From: Candidatus Moraniibacteriota bacterium
Lineage (GTDB): Bacteria; Patescibacteriota; Minisyncoccia; Moranbacterales; GCA-2747515
Assembly (NCBI GenBank): GCA_018401135.1
Contig: JAGYLL010000004.1
Span: forward strand, 1 to 38,988
DNA length: 38,988 nucleotides
Direction of reading: 5' to 3'
The notes under the pieces: generated by a model
The model's database searches: none
Told to the model about the DNA's origin: nothing
Seen by the model: the letters and a program-made list of their open reading frames with translations, nothing else
Position numbers and translations under genes: made by a program
Shown here: positions 8,657 through 28,141 of the stretch, piece after piece
Layout of the letters: the number at the start of each line of letters is the position of its first letter
Position numbering within the stretch: position 1 is the first letter of the stretch

Positions 8657-10100
8657 CATCCCGAAAGGGAGATGAAATAGTACCTGAAACCGTGTGCCGA
8701 CAAAGAGTCAGAGTTCCGCCTCGGCGGGATGATGGCGTACTTTTGTAGAACGGGCCAGCGAGTTTGTTTTTGCGGCAGCTTAAGGGGCGATGCTCCGGAG
8801 GCACAGTGAAAGCGAGGCTTAATAGGCCGTTAGTCGTAAGAACAAGACCCAGCCGGGTGAGCTACGCATGAGCAGGATGAACCTCGGGTAACACTGAGAG
8901 GAGGTCCGAACCCACGCACCGTGCAACATGCGGGGATGACTTGTGCGTAGAGGAGAAATTCCAATCGAACTCGGCAATAGCTGGTTCCTTCCGAAATAGC
9001 TTAGGCGCGTTTCGTTAATAATCACGAGAGGTAGAGCTACTGAATGAGATTTCGCGGTTCGCCGTAGGAATTTCAATCAAACTCCGAATGCTTGTGATGG
9101 TATCGAAGCAGTCAGAACTCCGGGGCTAAGCTCGGAGCTCAAGAGGGGAACAGCCCAGACCGTCATCTAAGGTCCCTAAATCCATGCTCAGTGGTGAAGG
9201 AGGTGAGATTTCTCAGACACCTAGTAGGTTGGCAAAGCAGCCACCCTTTAAAGAGTGCGTAACAGCTCACTAGTTTAGAGATTTCGCGCCGAAATATAAC
9301 GGGCTTAAGCATGGTACCGAAGATACGGATCCGTCTTTGACGGGATGGTAGGAGAGCGTTCCTTGTGCATTGAAGCTGTAGGGTGACCCATGGTGGAGCG
9401 CAGGAAGTGAGAATGCTGGCATGAGTAACCGCAATCTTGGTGAGATTCCAAGACGCCGAAAGTCCAAAGGTTTCCCGCTATGTTAATCATCCGGTGAGTC
9501 GGTCCTAAGGCGAGGCCGAAAGGCAAATGATGGACAGCCGGTTAATATTCCGGCACCAATATACTATTCGATGGAGTGACGTATTGCTGTACCCTTTGCG
9601 CATTATTGATTTGCGTAGAGATACTGAGAATGTATGATAGGCAAATCCGTCATACAATAATTCGAGGTATCGATCGATTTTCTTGCTGCAAGAAATAAGA
9701 AAGGGGAGCGCGGTACCGGGAAAAGCTTCTAAGGTTCGTAGTATATTGTCCGTACCGAAAACCGACACAGGTGGACAGGGCGAGTAGCCCAGCGAATGAG
9801 TGATTTCGTTAAGGAACTCGGCAAAAACAGCTAGGCGTAACTTAGGGATATGCCTTGCCAGTGCCCGAACAGAGTATTTATAATAATGTATCAAGACATA
9901 TTTCTTAAGGTATTTGAATACTGTGTTCGGGTACTGGCCGCAGCGAAAGATCCCAACCGACTGTTTACCAAAACACAGGTCTCTGCAAAAGCGAAAGCTG
10001 AAGTATAGGGGCTGACACCTGACCAGTGCTGGAACGTTAACGGGAGCGGTGCAAGCCAATCCCAGCGCCAGTGAACGTCAGCGATAACTATAATCGTTCT

Positions 10101-19185: not shown

Positions 19186-20679
19186 ATGACTCCTTTAGGA
19201 AAAATTTTTCATAGATTACTTCATAAACCTCCTCTTCAAAAAGAAAAAACATCTCTTCGAGACATTGATAGGGGTGCTTTGGAGGCATATTCTTGGTGGA
19301 AAAATACCTATGTATATATTAGGAAAAATAGAATTCGAACATGGAAAGTTATTTTCATTTTAGCTTTTATTTCAGGGATGATATCAGCAACAATATGGTT
19401 GGTGCATATACGAATAGAAACTACTTCGGATGCTTTTTTTCAGGCGGATGTTCCTATGGAAGTTATAAAATACAAGGGATGCGTTGCTGACGGTGTTCTT
19501 TCTGGTTATGGTGGGAGAACAGAGGAAACTATTGCATTACTCGAACGATCAGATTGTGTATATTTGCATCGATCTGTTGAGACATGGCTCGCACATCCAA
19601 ACTTTACACTTGTTGAAAAAAATTTACAGAAATTTACTCGAAAAGACTTTATTTTTGGTATGTTTCTTGCTGAAGCTATTAATCCAACATTACAACCTTA
19701 TAAAGCTGATGGAAAAACATTTGATTTTTCTAAAATGTGTAAAGAGGGGAGTTATGGTTTTTGGGGACCAGATACGTGTAAAGCAGACTTCTCTCGCTTG
19801 GAATACCGAAGGTATTTAGAACATATTACGCAAAAGGCTATAGATATAGGAATACAAGGATTTCTTTTTGGTCAAATTATGCTTCAAGACGGGAATATTT
19901 CCAGTAGCTCTTATGCGTATGAAATTGTTGCTTCTATGAGAGATTATGCGAAGAAAAAAGGAAAAAAAATTATTATTGGAGCACAAACGAATGTTATCGC
20001 AGATCCATCGTATCTTCATCTTTTTGACTATATTGAAGGTGGTGTGGGAATAAATGAGCAAGGGAATATTGAAGAAGATATTTGTTTTTCTCGGTGGTGG
20101 GATCCTGAAAAAGGGGGTTGGTGCTGGGCACTTTTATGGCATGAAAAATACGCTTCACAAGCAAAAAACGTTATTTTGCATCTAGATTGGCGAGGAGATC
20201 CTTCTGATGATATGAGTATATTTGCGAGAATGGATCAAGATTTGAGAGCAAAAACACTCAAAAATCTCTATGGTTTTTTTCGAGAAAAAGATATGGGATT
20301 TTTTTTACCGATGCTTGCTGTGGTTGCAAAAGATAATAATGGTGGATGTTATGGTCCACAAGAAGACTTTTACTCACCTAATAATATATTTGGCTGTAGA
20401 GACGAATCAATTATTCATGAAATACTTACGTATAGAGATTTTTTTTACGAAAGCCCTCTCAAACAAAAACCTCTTTTTAATGAAGCATCTTTTATTTCCC
20501 AAATTGTTCCCCAAGAAATGATAGCAGGACAAAAATATACCATTTCCATTTCTTTGCAGAATTCAGGAACAACAATATGGGAGGACGATCAAAACAGACT
20601 TGGTTCTAAAGTCCTCAGGACAATGATATATGGGGAGAATCGTACAATCTACGGAGAAAGTTTTTCTACAGTGAAATAA
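19186..20679 (+). CDS. Membrane-anchored barrel-like protein with C-terminal Ig domain
   Basis: 497 residues. A cytoplasmic N-terminus (about 1-60) is followed by one transmembrane segment (about 63-82, VIFILAFISGMISATIWLV) and a large extracellular alpha/beta region. KKIIIGAQTNV, FDYIEGGVGIN, NVILHLDWRGD and MGFFLPMLAVVAKDNNGGC resemble strands of a TIM-barrel glycoside-hydrolase-like fold with acidic residues at strand ends. From about residue 440 an NBR1/FW-type Ig domain starts (VPQEMIAGQKYTISISLQ NSGTTIW) but is cut by a stop at 20677-20679; its remainder continues in other frames to about 20823. Catalytic function not identified. Follows the CBS gene by 9 bases. Confidence 0.65.
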   Translation: MTPLGKIFHRLLHKPPLQKEKTSLRDIDRGALEAYSWWKNTYVYIRKNRIRTWKVIFILAFISGMISATIWLVHIRIETTSDAFFQADVPMEVIKYKGCVADGVLSGYGGRTEETIALLERSDCVYLHRSVETWLAHPNFTLVEKNLQKFTRKDFIFGMFLAEAINPTLQPYKADGKTFDFSKMCKEGSYGFWGPDTCKADFSRLEYRRYLEHITQKAIDIGIQGFLFGQIMLQDGNISSSSYAYEIVASMRDYAKKKGKKIIIGAQTNVIADPSYLHLFDYIEGGVGINEQGNIEEDICFSRWWDPEKGGWCWALLWHEKYASQAKNVILHLDWRGDPSDDMSIFARMDQDLRAKTLKNLYGFFREKDMGFFLPMLAVVAKDNNGGCYGPQEDFYSPNNIFGCRDESIIHEILTYRDFFYESPLKQKPLFNEASFISQIVPQEMIAGQKYTISISLQNSGTTIWEDDQNRLGSKVLRTMIYGENRTIYGESFSTVK

Positions 20680-21550: not shown

Positions 21551-24500
21551 ATGAAATACTTTCAATGCGTGGATACGAAAAAAACCGTCGATGAGCGAGA
21601 ACGAGAAATTCTTGATTTTTGGGAAAAAGAAAAAATATTCCAAAAATCTCTTATTCTTCGTGAGGATTCGCCTCGATATTCTTTTTTTGACGGACCTCCT
21701 TTTGCTACAGGAACGCCTCATTATGGACATTTAGTGCAAAGCATACTCAAAGATGTTGTTCCTCGATATTGGACTATGCGGGGGAAATATGTAGAGCGTC
21801 AGTGGGGTTGGGATTGTCATGGGCTTCCTATTGAAAATATCGTGGAAAAAGAAATGGGATCAAAAAGTAAAAAGGATATTGAAGCTCTTGGTATTGAAAA
21901 ATTCAATGAACATTGTCGCTCTAACGTATTAAGTTATGTCGAGGAATGGAAAAAAGTTATTTCTCGATGTGGTCGATGGGCTGATATGGATAATGCCTAT
22001 CGAACTATGGATCCAGAATATATGGAAAGTGTATGGTGGGTTTTTGGCGAACTTTGGAAAAAAGGCTTGATTTATGAAGGATACCGATCTTTACATATCT
22101 GTCCACGATGTGAAACAACTCTCTCACAATCAGAAGTAGCAGAAGGATATAAAGATATAAAAGATATTTCGGTTGTTGTAAGGTTTGAACTTGAAGACGA
22201 GTCAAAAACGTTTATTCTTGCGTGGACGACGACACCATGGACGCTTTTGGGAAATGTTGCCTTGGCGGTAGGAAAAGATATAACTTATAGCGTGGTAGGT
22301 ATTGAAGGAGAAGAAGAAAAATATATTGTTGCCGATGATAGAATAGAAAGTATTTTCGGGGATAAAAAATATACAAAAGAAAAAACTTTGCAAGGTTGTG
22401 ATCTTATTGGGAAATCTTATAAACCTTTATTTACTTTTGCTAGAGAGAATAAAAAAATCGAAAATCGTGAAAATAGTTGGAAAATATATGGAGCAGATTT
22501 TGTTACGACAGAAGAAGGGACAGGCGTTGTACATATTGCTCCTGCGTATGGATCAGATGATATGGCACTAGGAAAAGAACATACACTTTCTTTTGTTCAA
22601 CATGTGGGAATTGATGGAATAATTGCAGAGGGGTATGGAAATTTTTCAAAAAAAGATGTTCGGCCACGAGCAAAAAATAAACCAGAAGAAATACGTGAAA
22701 TTGATATTGAAATTCTCAAAGTGCTTAAAGAAAATAAGGGATATTTTTCGCACAAAAAATATGAACATAGTTATCCGCATTGTTGGCGATGCGATACAGC
22801 ACTTCTTAATTATGCGACAACAAGTTGGTTTGTTGCCGTAGAAAAAATAAAAAAAGAACTTCTTAGAACGGCTCAGAACATTCACTGGGTTCCAGAGCAT
22901 ATAAAAGAAGGCCGTTTTGGAAATTGGCTTTCTGGCGCACGAGATTGGTCTGTTTCCCGGCAACGATTTTGGGCAAGTGCTCTTCCCGTGTGGAAATGTG
23001 AGAAATGTACGAATATTCGTGTAGTTTCTTCGGTTATGGATATTTCCCAAGAATTAGGGGGGGTAAATCGTTTGTATCTTGTGCGACATGGAGAGGCGAA
23101 AAATAATACGCAAAACTTTTTGGATTCGACGGGAAATCCAGAGAATCATCTAACGGAAAATGGTAAGCAACAAGTAATGCTTTTGACACAAAAACTTTTC
23201 AACAAAACGATTGATGGTATTTTTACCTCACCCCTTCTTCGTACAAAAGAAACGGCAACTCTTTTGGCAGAAAAATTAGGAGGAGAGATTATAGAAGATG
23301 ATCGTCTTCGTGAAATTGGACACGGGTCGCTTGAGGGAAAATCAGCAGATACTTTGCGGACACCCTATCCAACGATATTTGATCAGAAAGGAGTGGGTCT
23401 CCCAGATGGAGTGGAGACTATTGATGCGCTTGAAATGCGTGTAAAAGATTTTCTTAAAGATATCAATACGAAATATCGCAATAAAACATTTATCATTGTT
23501 TCTCATGCTGACCCAATTACTATTTTTCATGGTCTTTCTCAGGGACTTTCGAGAGAGGAGATGAAACAAGGATGGTATCCAAAAAATGCAGAGATTAAAT
23601 CAATTTTTTCTAAGAAGATAGATCTTCATCGTCCCTATATTGATGAGGTTATACTTTCTTGTGATTGTGGTGGAGTAATGCATAGAGTTCCTGATGTTTT
23701 GGATACGTGGTTTGATAGTGGATCTATGCCGTATGCACAAATGCATTATCCTTTTGAAAATGAAGAAAAATTCAAAAAAAGTTTCCCTGCTGATTTTATT
23801 GGGGAGATGGTAGAACAAAGTAGGGCGTGGTTTTATTATCTCCACGTTCTTTCTACTGGTGTAATTGGATCACATGCCTTTAAGAATGTTGTTGCAAGTG
23901 GTGTAGTTCTTGCTGAAGACGGAAAGAAAATGTCCAAAAAACTCAAAAATTATCCTGATCCTAGTACGGTTTTGGAAAAGTATGGAGCTGATGTTTTACG
24001 TTTGTATCTCCTTAGTTCTCCTGTGGTTACGGCAGAAAATATTAATTTTAGTGAGAAAGAAATGGGAGAGCTTTCACGAGGACTATTTCGTATGCTTTGG
24101 AATACATATTCGTTTTTTATTATGTATGCTGATATAGACGGATGGATACCATCTTTGAAAAAAAATGATAAGGAGGAAGAAAAGAAACATATATTGGATC
24201 GCTGGATACTTTCTGAATTCCGTAAGACAGTTCATTGTGTAAATATAGCGATGGAAGCGTATGAGCTTTCCAAAGCCGTTCGATACTTCTCTCCCTTTGT
24301 AGATGATCTTTCAAATTGGTATATACGAAGAAGTCGTAAGCGTTTTTGGAAAAGTGAAAATGATAGTGATAAAAATGAGGCATATGCGACATTATATTAT
24401 ATTTTACGAGAATTTTCTAAACTCTTAGCACCTTTCGCTCCTTTTGTAGCAGAAGAAATGTATAGAAATCTTATGGGAAATTTTTCTTCTCCGGGGGCAA

Positions 24501-25105
24501 AGGAAAAGGGAGAGCTATCCGTACATCTTACAGACTATCCACAAGGAGAAATGGAGAAAAATAAAGAAGATGAGATGAGTATGCAAATGAAAAAAACTCG
24601 TGCTATTGTTAATCTTGGCCTTCAACTACGTGCCAAAGAAAAAATAAAAGTCCGACAACCCCTCTCAATTTTATATGTTATGTGCGAACCTCGTTTGCAA
24701 AAAGAATATACCGATATGATAGTGGAAGAATTAAATGTAAAAGAAGTAAAGTTTATTTCAAAAGAGAATGTATCTGAGAATAAGGAGAATATCGTTTGGT
24801 CAGAGATACAAGATTTGAAAGTAGGACTTTCTTTGGAGATAACTCCTGAGCTTCTTTTAGAAGGACAAGCAAGAGAAATTGTTCGTATTATTCAGGAAAT
24901 GCGAAAAAAGGCTGGGTATGCTATAGATGACCGTATTTGTCTGGGTTATGTCGGAAAAGAGGATGTCTTTGAAGCATTTGGTGAGGAGGTTATTGCATAT
25001 GAGACATTGTGTAAAAGTGTACGTAATGCAGTTCTTGAAAAATATGATATACTTGAAGAAGTGCTTATAGATGGAGAAAGAATGAAAATTTCTCTGTATA
25101 AATAA
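21551..25105 (+). CDS. ileS: Isoleucyl-tRNA synthetase with inserted histidine-phosphatase domain
   Basis: 1184 residues, longer than the usual about 930-1050. Class I signatures: PPFATGTPHYGH (HIGH-type, near residue 56) and KMSKK (793-797). The CP1 editing region shows LAWTTTPWTLLGN and the GTGVVHIAPAYGSDD segment; RDWSVSRQRFWASALPVW follows. Between CEKC and the DLHRPYIDEV block (691 onward) lies an extra domain of about 180 residues (about 508-685). It is a histidine phosphatase: LYLVRHGEAKNN (R512 H513 G514), SPLLRTKETA, LREIGHGSLEGKS and VSHADP (H652). All catalytic residues of that superfamily are present. The anticodon-binding region follows normally. Governed by the T-box upstream; a 51-residue Cys-rich ORF starts 9 bases downstream. 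The domain's substrate is unknown; such fusions may occur in other CPR IleRS. Confidence 0.95.
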   Translation: MKYFQCVDTKKTVDEREREILDFWEKEKIFQKSLILREDSPRYSFFDGPPFATGTPHYGHLVQSILKDVVPRYWTMRGKYVERQWGWDCHGLPIENIVEKEMGSKSKKDIEALGIEKFNEHCRSNVLSYVEEWKKVISRCGRWADMDNAYRTMDPEYMESVWWVFGELWKKGLIYEGYRSLHICPRCETTLSQSEVAEGYKDIKDISVVVRFELEDESKTFILAWTTTPWTLLGNVALAVGKDITYSVVGIEGEEEKYIVADDRIESIFGDKKYTKEKTLQGCDLIGKSYKPLFTFARENKKIENRENSWKIYGADFVTTEEGTGVVHIAPAYGSDDMALGKEHTLSFVQHVGIDGIIAEGYGNFSKKDVRPRAKNKPEEIREIDIEILKVLKENKGYFSHKKYEHSYPHCWRCDTALLNYATTSWFVAVEKIKKELLRTAQNIHWVPEHIKEGRFGNWLSGARDWSVSRQRFWASALPVWKCEKCTNIRVVSSVMDISQELGGVNRLYLVRHGEAKNNTQNFLDSTGNPENHLTENGKQQVMLLTQKLFNKTIDGIFTSPLLRTKETATLLAEKLGGEIIEDDRLREIGHGSLEGKSADTLRTPYPTIFDQKGVGLPDGVETIDALEMRVKDFLKDINTKYRNKTFIIVSHADPITIFHGLSQGLSREEMKQGWYPKNAEIKSIFSKKIDLHRPYIDEVILSCDCGGVMHRVPDVLDTWFDSGSMPYAQMHYPFENEEKFKKSFPADFIGEMVEQSRAWFYYLHVLSTGVIGSHAFKNVVASGVVLAEDGKKMSKKLKNYPDPSTVLEKYGADVLRLYLLSSPVVTAENINFSEKEMGELSRGLFRMLWNTYSFFIMYADIDGWIPSLKKNDKEEEKKHILDRWILSEFRKTVHCVNIAMEAYELSKAVRYFSPFVDDLSNWYIRRSRKRFWKSENDSDKNEAYATLYYILREFSKLLAPFAPFVAEEMYRNLMGNFSSPGAKEKGELSVHLTDYPQGEMEKNKEDEMSMQMKKTRAIVNLGLQLRAKEKIKVRQPLSILYVMCEPRLQKEYTDMIVEELNVKEVKFISKENVSENKENIVWSEIQDLKVGLSLEITPELLLEGQAREIVRIIQEMRKKAGYAIDDRICLGYVGKEDVFEAFGEEVIAYETLCKSVRNAVLEKYDILEEVLIDGERMKISLYK

Positions 25106-25580: not shown

Positions 25581-26306
25581 ATGTTTATGGAATATCGATA
25601 CACAGCCATTATTTTGGGAAAACGTGACATTGGAGAGACTGACCGTTTTTATACTTTTTTTACGCAAGAAGGTGGAAAAGTTACTGCCAAAGCAATAGGT
25701 GTTCGTAAATCGAATGCAAAGCTTTGTGCTCACCTGGAAACAGGAAATCTCACTACACTCACTGTTATGAAGCGAAGGGGTATGGGGAGAATAGTTTCGG
25801 CTTTTTGTGAGAAACGATATTTTTCTGAAGAAATATCTTTGGAGGTTTCTCAAGAAATAATATATATTCTTTCTCTTTTGGATCGTATTGTGGAAGAAAA
25901 TGAAAAGGATGAAATTCTTTTCCAACTCCTCTTTTCTTTTCTTGAGGTTTCTCAAGAAATAATAAAGAGAGGAGAGGAAGAGAAAGTTTTTCTTCTTGTA
26001 CAAGGTTTCCTTTTCCAGCTCCTTTGGCAACTTGGTATGGCACCTCATATACAAAAATGTACTTCTTGTAATAAAAAACTTTCTGGAAACAAAATATATA
26101 TGAGTGCAGAATATGGCGGTGTTTTGTGCTATGAATGTGGTGTTTCTCGTCAACATACTTTTTTGGTAACACAAGACACGATAAAACTTTTACGACTTTT
26201 TTCTTCTCATTCTCTCGTTTTACTTACAAAGATCAAAGTGAGTTCTCGACATATTTCTGACGTTCGAAATCTTTTGAATATTTTTTTTACACGACTTGCT
26301 CGATAA
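25581..26306 (+). CDS. recO: DNA repair protein RecO
   Basis: 241 residues. An N-terminal OB fold (YRYTAIILGKRDIGETDRFYTFFTQEGGKVTAKAIGVRK) has the typical RecO opening, followed by a helical middle. A C-terminal zinc finger has CTSC (about residue 160) and CYEC (about 183). RecO loads RecA on SSB-coated DNA with RecR. Start is ATG 25581 or 25587; the second matches the family N-terminus (MEYRYTA) equally well. It is on its own between the terminator region and repeat B. Confidence 0.9.
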   Translation: MFMEYRYTAIILGKRDIGETDRFYTFFTQEGGKVTAKAIGVRKSNAKLCAHLETGNLTTLTVMKRRGMGRIVSAFCEKRYFSEEISLEVSQEIIYILSLLDRIVEENEKDEILFQLLFSFLEVSQEIIKRGEEEKVFLLVQGFLFQLLWQLGMAPHIQKCTSCNKKLSGNKIYMSAEYGGVLCYECGVSRQHTFLVTQDTIKLLRLFSSHSLVLLTKIKVSSRHISDVRNLLNIFFTRLAR

Positions 26307-26618: not shown

Positions 26619-27053
26619 ATGAAAAAAGATGAGAACTATCGTGTAAAAAAAATGGGAAAGCGAATGACGCCTGTTAGACGAGCATTGCTGGATATTTTTA
26701 TGCGAGCAAAAGAACCTTTTTCTCTGGAAGATGTTGAAAAAACATTACACATATCTGGAATGCGACCTGATTTTACCACGCTTTGGAGGCAGATAGACTT
26801 TTTCTTACAAGAGGGTATCATCGAACAATTAGATATCCCTGGTCGCAAGCGTTTCTTCGAAAAAAAGCAACAGCACCACCATCATTTCATATGTTCTTCT
26901 TGTGGGGAGAAGCAATGTCTTGGGGAGAAGAAAATTCATAGAGCTATAAAAAGCATTATCTCTTCTGTAGAAAAAGAAGGCTTAAAGATTGATTCGCATT
27001 TTTTCTCTCTCAAGGGAAGGTGCCAGATATGTATTCAAAAAAATAGTGTATAA
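26619..27053 (+). CDS. zur: Fur-family regulator, probably Zur
   Basis: 144 residues, normal for Fur. Winged helix: MTPVRRALLDIFMRAKEPFSLEDVEKTL to FTTLWRQIDFFLQEGIIEQL (about 15-70). The dimerisation domain has HHHHFICSSCGEKQCL (about 87-103) and a C-terminal CQIC pair, giving a structural CxxC...CxxC zinc site plus a His-rich sensory site. Assigned to zinc rather than iron because the next genes encode a ZnuABC-type uptake system. A palindrome lies at its own start. The transcript would have almost no leader and no Shine-Dalgarno. Confidence 0.85.
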   Translation: MKKDENYRVKKMGKRMTPVRRALLDIFMRAKEPFSLEDVEKTLHISGMRPDFTTLWRQIDFFLQEGIIEQLDIPGRKRFFEKKQQHHHHFICSSCGEKQCLGEKKIHRAIKSIISSVEKEGLKIDSHFFSLKGRCQICIQKNSV

Positions 27054-27082: not shown

Positions 27083-28141
27083 ATGGAAAATAATGAAAAA
27101 AAACGGTTTTGTATGCTCGACAAGTTTCGTTCATTAAAACGGTCTTCTCAGTTAGGCATAGGGTTCGTTCTTTTTGGAATACTTGTTTTTGGTTTTTTGG
27201 TTTTTTCTGGTGAAAAAAATGAAGTAATTCCTATAGAATCTCTTTCTGATGAAAAAGAAAAACTTCAGGTGATAACAAGTTTTTATCCTTTAGCTTTTAT
27301 GGCTGAAAAAATAGGAGGTGAGAAAATTGCTATTTCCAATCTTGCTGGCTCGAGAGATGTGCACTCTTATCAAGTGACTCCTTCTGATATGAAGAACATA
27401 TTTGAAGCTGATCTTGTTATTTTTCAAGGAGAGGGATTTGAGCCTTGGATAGAAGATGTTGTTTCTCAATTAGAAAGTGCCGATATTCCATTTCTTTCTC
27501 TTCTAGATAAAATGCCTTTATCTGAAGAAGAGGGACATCATGAAGAAGAGGGACATCATGAAGAAGAGGGACATCATGAAGAAGAGGGACATCATGAAGA
27601 AGAGGGACATAGTCATGATCATGGAGGAAAAGATCCTCATACATGGGTTGATCCTCTTTTGGCAAAAGAAATGACTCGTCTTATTCGAGATACTCTTATT
27701 CAAATAGATGACCAGAATAAAGATCTCTACGAAAAAAATGCTCAAATTCTTTTAGATGCTCTCGATGTTTTGGATCAAGAATATCAGCAGGTACTTGCTG
27801 TATGTGATCGAGAAGAAGTTATTGTTTCTCATAATGCCTTTGGTTATTTAGCAAAACGGTATGACTTTGTGACACATGCTATTGCTGGAATTTCTACTCT
27901 CGATGAGCCTTCTGCCAAGCTTTTGGCTGAACTAAAAAAGGAAGCATCTTCTGGGGTAACTCACATTCTTACAGAAGAGGGATCGGTTACAAAATATGCC
28001 GAAACACTTTCTTTGGAAACAGGATTACAAATACTCCCTATAAATCCTATGGGAAGAGGAACACTTGATCCTTCCAAAGATTATTTTGATGTTTCTCGAG
28101 AAAATCTTCAATCACTTGCTCTTTCCTTGGGTTGCGAGTAA
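27083..28141 (+). CDS. znuA: Zinc ABC transporter substrate-binding lipoprotein-like protein (ZnuA)
   Basis: 352 residues. An N-terminal membrane anchor (about residues 22-42) is followed by the cluster A-I binding protein fold: VITSFYPLAFMAEKIGG, GSRDVHSYQVTPSD (first His ligand), ADLVIFQGEGFEPW, DPHTWVDP (second), VSHNAFGYLAKRY (third), and a final acidic ligand segment (TEEGSVTKYAETL). The metal-capturing loop at about residues 148-180 is four perfect EEEGHH units plus EEEGHSHDH. Such His/Glu-rich loops are typical of zinc-specific members. Instead of a lipobox it is anchored by the N-terminal helix. Starts 29 bases after zur. Confidence 0.93.
   Translation: MENNEKKRFCMLDKFRSLKRSSQLGIGFVLFGILVFGFLVFSGEKNEVIPIESLSDEKEKLQVITSFYPLAFMAEKIGGEKIAISNLAGSRDVHSYQVTPSDMKNIFEADLVIFQGEGFEPWIEDVVSQLESADIPFLSLLDKMPLSEEEGHHEEEGHHEEEGHHEEEGHHEEEGHSHDHGGKDPHTWVDPLLAKEMTRLIRDTLIQIDDQNKDLYEKNAQILLDALDVLDQEYQQVLAVCDREEVIVSHNAFGYLAKRYDFVTHAIAGISTLDEPSAKLLAELKKEASSGVTHILTEEGSVTKYAETLSLETGLQILPINPMGRGTLDPSKDYFDVSRENLQSLALSLGCE
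27524..27612 (+). repeat. 18-bp tandem repeat coding EEEGHH
   Basis: Four identical 18-bp units GAAGAAGAGGGACATCAT (27524-27595) plus a partial fifth. Nucleotide identity, not just amino-acid identity, shows recent slippage-type expansion of the zinc-binding loop. The identical units form a contiguous in-frame array, not a CRISPR. Confidence 0.95.

Follow-up and report, generated by a model that had tools for sequence, protein, structure and literature searches.

A predicted histidine phosphatase embedded in the isoleucyl-tRNA synthetase of a Patescibacterium: recurrence, conservation and possible role

Aminoacyl-tRNA synthetases that carry extra domains are common. In the genome-reduced bacterium Mycoplasma penetrans, a methionyl-tRNA synthetase (MetRS) with an appended aminotransferase has been shown to be bifunctional (PMC7694997), and the NCBIfam family NF040702 (ileS_w_GNAT) already names an isoleucyl-tRNA synthetase (IleRS) that likewise bears an additional small enzyme. 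HIT hydrolases confer resistance to microcin C by removing a nucleotide inhibitor of an aminoacyl-tRNA synthetase (PMC7157772), and one Sulfolobus fusion joins a histidine-phosphatase (HP) domain to an adenylate-forming ATP sulfurylase (PMC11237513). The locus described here is the ileS gene in a 38,988-nucleotide stretch (the window; contig JAGYLL010000004.1 of assembly GCA_018401135.1, Candidatus Moraniibacteriota bacterium), whose product has an HP domain in the tip of its zinc ribbon. The solved IleRS structures (8c8u/8c8v, 1ile and 7d5c) have no enzyme at this tip, and align with the window protein without the HP segment.

Positions 21551-25105 of the forward strand form one uninterrupted open reading frame (ORF) of 1184 aa with no internal stops. 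Its features are given below, placed by sequence landmarks unless stated otherwise:
21551 to 25105 (+): ileS, a type-2 (eukaryote-like) IleRS with an inserted HP domain (Pfam, TIGR00392, structure alignment)
22220 to 22561 (+): core motifs of the CP1 editing domain, intact, from AWTTTPWT (residues 224-231) to GTGVVHIAPAYGSDD (residues 323-337)
22997 to 23008 (+): CEKC (residues 483-486), first half of the zinc ribbon, a short way N-terminal of the insert
23063 to 23614 (+): inserted HP (PF00300) domain, residues about 505-688 (Pfam, model and landmarks)
23084 to 23092 (+): RHG motif, R512, H513 and G514 (also by tetrad conservation)
23240 to 23242 (+): second catalytic arginine, R564, in SPLLRTKET (also by conservation)
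23312 to 23314 (+): general-acid glutamate, E588, in RLREIGHG (also by conservation)
23501 to 23512 (+): SHAD motif, S651-H652-A653-D654, with the second catalytic histidine H652 (also by conservation)
23660 to 23674 (+): second half of the zinc ribbon, CDCGG (residues 704-708), immediately C-terminal of the insert
23927 to 23941 (+): KMSKS signature, here KMSKK (residues 793-797)

The synthetase scaffold is recognised in full. Pfam reports tRNA-synt_1 (E 1.6e-128, split into two pieces), an anticodon-binding domain (E 1.8e-33) and a C-terminal DUF5915, and the ileS equivalog TIGR00392 is matched at 880.9 bits (with the neighbours in frame) against a curated cut-off of 621.4. The class I landmarks HYGH (residues 57-60) and WFDSG (720-724) are present, and the DLHRPYID strand lies at residues 691-698. 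IleRS2 of Priestia megaterium (8c8u/8c8v), which is mupirocin-resistant, and IleRS of Thermus thermophilus (1ile) are alike over the whole scaffold (phmmer E 1e-216 to 1e-218), and the likeness to type-2 enzymes extends to the CP1 motifs, the zinc ribbon, HYGH and KMSK. An AlphaFold2 model of the full-length protein, built with 29 relatives, has a mean pLDDT of 88 and a pTM of 0.77, and aligns by VIA to IleRS of yeast (7d5c, Z 44.7), P. megaterium (8c8u, Z 43.5) and Thermus (1ile, Z 39.8), showing that the body is that of a normal type-2 IleRS with no part replaced by the insert. No second full-strength ileS was found in the window genome (820 kb, 97% complete) among the TIGR00392 matches listed, where both ileS-strength matches are halves of the window gene. 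By sequence and predicted structure, the ORF would encode the housekeeping IleRS of its source Patescibacterium. Among named records, the closest to this gene region is a Candidatus Moraniibacteriota metagenome-assembled genome (L194), in line with a Moranbacteria-like source (Parcubacteria group).

The HP domain was matched by PF00300 (His_Phos_1) at E 5.6e-34 and 117.9 bits, against a gathering score of 21.7, over residues 508-682 (nt 23072-23596). An initial annotation of this DNA had proposed an HP within IleRS, lying between CP1 editing and the KMSKS half and retaining RHG, the second arginine, glutamate and SHAD. All of this was borne out by the single ORF, the Pfam match, the located residues and the recurrence of the architecture in many other genomes, and the landmark positions narrow the insertion point to the loop at the zinc ribbon tip, between the two cysteine pairs. 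In relatives that lack the insert, a bare loop takes its place, such as ELESLSGKKINDLHKH, or CDKCAEKRVIGSVEELESLSGKKINDLHKHIVDEITFKCEKC in locus L149, which provides an empty-site comparison. The GC content of the insert (0.38) is similar to that of its flanks (0.37 and 0.35), as is that of third codon positions, so that nothing suggests a join made in assembly. Within the HP region of the full-length model, blocks have pLDDT values of 75-96 and strands alternate with helices; Foldseek and VIA searches with this model returned synthetases only and are uninformative on the HP fold, and a model of the isolated HP from its single sequence was poor (pLDDT 45) and was set aside. A PF00300 search of the window genome found no other HP.

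In HPs with these residues, the phosphate moves onto the RHG histidine and then to water; H513 is presumably the phospho-acceptor here, as assigned by family knowledge. Of 76 HP domains embedded in IleRS or valyl-tRNA synthetase (ValRS), at about 30-45% identity, 75 retain the whole R-H..R..H tetrad (an HP fused to an MFS transporter, L088, is left out of this count). Only one copy departs from this, in the ValRS of L087, where the second histidine is lost. The general-acid glutamate is retained in 70 of the 76, or about nine in ten, and R512, H513, R564, E588 and H652 are among the few invariant columns in 28 aligned HP regions of IleRS. In the closest pair, the only one compared, dN/dS is 0.059 for the HP and 0.081 for the rest of IleRS, and on this one close pair the HP is evidently under purifying selection, like the synthetase part. 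The initial annotation had remarked that the domain looks active and had named loss of the catalytic residues in relatives as a sign to the contrary; no such loss occurred, and tetrad, glutamate and dN/dS together support its remark well. Judged by these comparisons, the inserted domain is almost certainly a working phosphatase.

The evidence base is comparative, and phyla beyond Patescibacteria were sampled indirectly, through the best 80 loci similar to the window region. HP domains were searched for in 379 Patescibacteria genomes, with HP-profile mapping on the fetched regions, and many families proved to have them within IleRS. A survey with the ileS profile, of the kind that the initial annotation had suggested for these bacteria, showed an HP-bearing IleRS in 21 of 136 Patescibacteria genomes, from 17 families:
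HP-IleRS genomes, first part: G000, G006, G025, G043, G046, G053, G061, G062, G070, G075, G089
HP-IleRS genomes, remainder: G092, G103, G106, G115, G118, G121, G126, G132, G133, G135

The majority of IleRS in the window's own order are without HP. Across IleRS and ValRS there are about six insertion sites. Those of IleRS, in the numbering of the window protein, are at about 500-706 (the main site), shortly after the DLHxxxxD strand (where the second copy of tandem HP pairs is found), at about 736 and at about 867; in ValRS, HPs occur both before and after the WFSS motif. ValRS identity was taken from scores above the NCBIfam valS cut-off (L079, L081) or, for the others, from a DTWFSS motif. 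Two HPs are carried by the IleRS of L068, L069, L075, L077 and L078, and an HP follows KMSKS in L077, L080 and L084. The last of these (L084, 3167-7882, +) encodes an IleRS of 1572 codons with three HPs at three different sites. In genome G046, a ValRS has two tandem HPs (L260, 2375-6208, -), and the IleRS of the same genome carries both an HP and a GNAT domain.

Among the best 80 loci, matches in other named phyla were confined to the IleRS flanks. The sole HP-IleRS named outside Patescibacteria was in a 'Spirochaetia' metagenome-assembled genome (L184, 2-3088, +); it was rejected as a Spirochaetia example, as its short contig (8.5 kb) and an 'LPCRQAG' stretch, which we take to be a Patescibacteria feature, make it look like a mis-binned Patescibacteria contig.

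An HP also occurs beside ileS. In family f3, which belongs to the window's order, IleRS is insert-free, and ileS is directly preceded, in the same orientation, by a separate HP gene of about 190-250 codons; this arrangement is seen in all nine regions that hold both genes, from nine genomes. Where the region extends far enough, a RecO-like ORF (its N-terminus read) lies behind the f3 ileS, and the window ileS is likewise followed by recO:
25581 to 26306 (+): recO, downstream of the window ileS (Pfam)

Further f3 neighbours were assigned by reading of their sequences. The HP gene is mostly preceded by a putative argS, and some f3 loci have another small ORF between HP and ileS. By the same means, a HIT-like ORF was placed between HP and ileS in L128 (5061-5564, +), an HD/RSH-like ORF next to the HP in the ileS operon of L035 (about 9042-9548, +) and a NUDIX-like ORF behind ileS in L132 (5789-6352, +).

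Other small enzymes share the synthetase loops. Pfam matches reveal a serine hydrolase, a NUDIX domain and an HP in one IleRS (L086, 2141-6772, +), a GNAT domain and an HP in another (L080, 3638-7990, -), and a serine hydrolase with an HP in a ValRS (L079, 2695-6537, +). The IleRS of L147 has a serine-hydrolase-like insert, by similarity to the insert in L122, and a CYTH-like insert beside the HP in L089 (3424-7446, +) was recognised by reading only, with no Pfam confirmation. Taken together, the loops of these synthetases look like landing sites for small enzymes.

Elsewhere in the window, a ZnuA-type zinc-binding protein (27083-28141) has a perfect HHEEEG repeat in its presumed metal loop and adjoins a Fur-family regulator (26619-27053), and a 497-codon ORF (19186-20679) has a hydrophobic segment at its N-terminus and is matched by no Pfam family.

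The history of the insert was followed on two trees. On a quick tree of IleRS bodies with the HP cut out, the presence of HP must have changed at least 16 times, with 10 of these changes made necessary by well-supported branches, and close relatives differ in it (L126 with and L147 without HP; L120 with and L151 without). On a tree of HP domains that includes 23 ordinary stand-alone HPs, most synthetase-embedded HPs and the f3 operon HPs group together, and the f3 genes are nested among the copies from IleRS and ValRS, close to the window HP (SH-aLRT 90). One clade of all synthetase-associated HPs was not rejected by the approximately unbiased (AU) test (p 0.42), while one clade of the main-site IleRS HPs alone was mildly rejected (p 0.029). 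A single ancient, vertically inherited insertion is unsupported given the number of changes and the rejection of the main-site clade. Unrelated, random pick-up of an HP each time is not shown either, as the single synthetase-associated clade stands at p 0.42, itself no proof. Our reading is of an HP lineage that has probably passed among IleRS, ValRS and the ileS operon, supplemented by some additional recruitment; the deep branches are weak.

The window IleRS may be viewed as a candidate bifunctional enzyme, with a complete branch 1 HP in the exposed zinc-ribbon tip and with its editing and aminoacylation parts intact. A small phosphomonoester would give up its phosphate to H513, forming a short-lived phosphohistidine, and E588/H652 and R512/R564 would play the parts that they have in characterised HP members. 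The weakest step concerns the substrate, which may be a nucleotide-type compound arising at, or aimed at, the branched-chain synthetases. Candidates would be AMP or adenylate by-products, the products of Ap4A-type dinucleotides, and adenylate mimics that bear a phosphate and act as synthetase poisons. That the HP is placed again and again on the Ile and Val synthetases or beside them suggests a substrate produced at, or aimed at, these enzymes, and with NUDIX, GNAT and HIT-like enzymes found alongside, the simplest guess is an adenylate-type molecule. The NUDIX, GNAT and serine hydrolase inserts and the HIT-like and HD-like neighbours could all supply chemistries suited to removing or detoxifying such molecules, and the microcin C resistance given by HIT hydrolases is a precedent for nucleotide detoxification around synthetases. 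The coupling to Ile charging that the initial annotation raised as speculation gains support from the recurrence in IleRS and ValRS and from the stand-alone HP adjoining ileS. That the HP of a bifunctional IleRS acts on a nucleotide by-product of the synthetase, or on an inhibitor aimed at it, is the reading we favour, tentatively and as somewhat short of probable.

Several observations weigh against it. No NCBIfam HP subfamily listed exceeds its cut-off with the window HP: the best match, archaeal dPGM (NF038349), has E 5e-29 and 101.6 bits against a cut-off of 225, the phosphoserine phosphatase PspA (NF045917) 90.8 bits against 350, and the alpha-ribazole phosphatase CobC (TIGR03162) 90.7 bits against 162.9. 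The nearest solved relatives, phosphoserine phosphatase 1 (4ij5, E 1.2e-19) and a PhoE-type phosphatase (1h2e/1ebb), act on phosphoserine or on many phosphomonoesters, with no known nucleotides among them. The identities of the HIT-like, HD-like and argS neighbours rest on reading of the sequence. The patchy occurrence of the HP, with most Patescibacteria IleRS lacking it, sister lineages differing and at least 16 changes on the tree, indicates that it is dispensable.

The main rival to a synthetase-directed phosphatase is that an active HP with an unrelated job, such as general phosphomonoester scavenging or phosphoserine-type activity, is simply tolerated in exposed IleRS and ValRS loops, which accept domains with close-lying ends, in a gene that is constantly expressed in a small genome. 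The patchy distribution agrees with this, as do the presence of GNAT, NUDIX and serine hydrolase domains in the same loops, the phosphoserine and broad-specificity activities of the closest solved relatives, and a window genome with no HP other than the insert. However, the HP predominates in a way that such nesting would not predict. In an unbiased PF00300 survey of 69 genomes, with roughly 80 HP genes, 13 HPs lay in ORFs of more than 500 codons, and 11 of these were in IleRS (8) or ValRS (3), the remaining two being fused to a dehydrogenase-like and to an alpha/beta-hydrolase-like protein. Per genome, NUDIX domains outnumber HPs several-fold, but among the matches listed (a best-scoring sample) only 2 of 151 were in ORFs of that length, so that the availability of small domains alone is not a sufficient explanation. 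The recurrence of HP at some six sites across two related synthetases, as well as in a gene adjacent to ileS, and the resemblance of the embedded HPs to a related set rather than to random picks, also count against nesting, which we regard as a serious contender but somewhat unlikely.

Fusions of HP to other proteins were seen in Patescibacteria as well: to a DedA/UptA-like membrane protein (L082, 4366-5676, -), to the MFS transporter mentioned above (L088, 4685-6556, -), to a D-2-hydroxyacid-dehydrogenase-like protein (L261, 2488-4143, -) and to an alpha/beta hydrolase-like protein (L262, 1653-3647, +).

The HP might instead be a regulatory sensor, binding or cleaving a phosphorylated signal, such as an alarmone like ppGpp or an intermediate of glycolysis, and thus tuning Ile or Val charging through the zinc ribbon. 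Its position within the catalytic part of the synthetase would suit such a role, and the HD/RSH-like ORF next to the HP in L035, identified by reading, is in keeping with it. Pure sensors often lose their catalytic residues, whereas here these are kept throughout, and sites that vary between positions before and after KMSKS are ill-suited to a single allosteric route, making a sensor distinctly unlikely. A phosphatase acting on macromolecules, which would restore charging by dephosphorylating either the 3' or 2' end of tRNA or the synthetase, the latter perhaps following the action of a HipA-like kinase, would account for an HP that is part of the synthetase or is produced together with it. 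HP relatives that act on phosphoamino acids exist, the closest solved one being phosphoserine phosphatase 1, but we know of no HP that acts on tRNA ends, and this alternative is improbable. A dead structural insert, for which the general fact that synthetase loops accept inserts is the sole argument, is very improbable in view of the 75 of 76 intact tetrads, the purifying selection, the occurrence of the architecture in dozens of genomes and the lack of a composition break; its variant as an assembly artefact is refuted. Replacement of the cell's glycolytic cofactor-dependent phosphoglycerate mutase by the insert, suggested by the sub-threshold match to archaeal dPGM and by the insert being the genome's sole HP, is barely conceivable and largely refuted, as two PF01676 metalloenzymes with the size of a cofactor-independent mutase are encoded in the window genome (ORFs of 538 and 511 aa), which make a glycolytic duty unlikely, and most HP-IleRS genomes sampled have at least one PF01676 protein.

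If the HP does serve the synthetase, a broader picture can be drawn, in which a dedicated Patescibacteria HP lineage would serve the branched-chain synthetases and, together with NUDIX, GNAT and serine hydrolase domains, would provide self-cleaning in cis against adenylate-type by-products or nucleotide inhibitors. We consider this extension possible but unlikely. Were it true, it would point to novel nucleotide inhibitors or by-products at IleRS and ValRS in a very large uncultivated group. An intact phosphatase found repeatedly inside the catalytic part of an essential synthetase, in two synthetases and in a neighbouring gene, argues strongly, on comparative grounds, for the removal of a phosphate as a step tied to tRNA charging, one that appears to be undescribed so far. 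Although most of the host bacteria are uncultivated, E. coli can be used to express the proteins, which opens the question to direct testing.

Compared with known systems, the window HP shares PF00300 and the RHG, R, E and H residues with members of HP branch 1 (4ij5, 1h2e/1ebb), and differs from them in being embedded in a synthetase. No description of HP domains in IleRS or ValRS was found in the open-access full-text literature (which covers few subscription papers and preprints), and no NCBIfam entry for an HP-IleRS came up. The ileS_w_GNAT family differs in that its extra enzyme is a GNAT and not a phosphatase; HP-IleRS proteins score far below its cut-off, the window protein falls outside it, and Pfam reports no GNAT match in the latter. 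HIT hydrolases resemble the HP as hydrolases at a synthetase, and a HIT-like ORF even stands between HP and ileS in L128, but they cleave a different bond by a different mechanism. The MetRS of M. penetrans is similar in joining a synthetase to a second catalytic domain; it differs in that its domain is an N-terminal appendage that supplies the amino acid, in the one species of that study, whereas the window enzyme has a phosphatase within its catalytic part. Extra catalytic domains of synthetases were thus already known, and what appears to be new here is the histidine phosphatase as the partner in a bifunctional synthetase, and its unusual recurrence.

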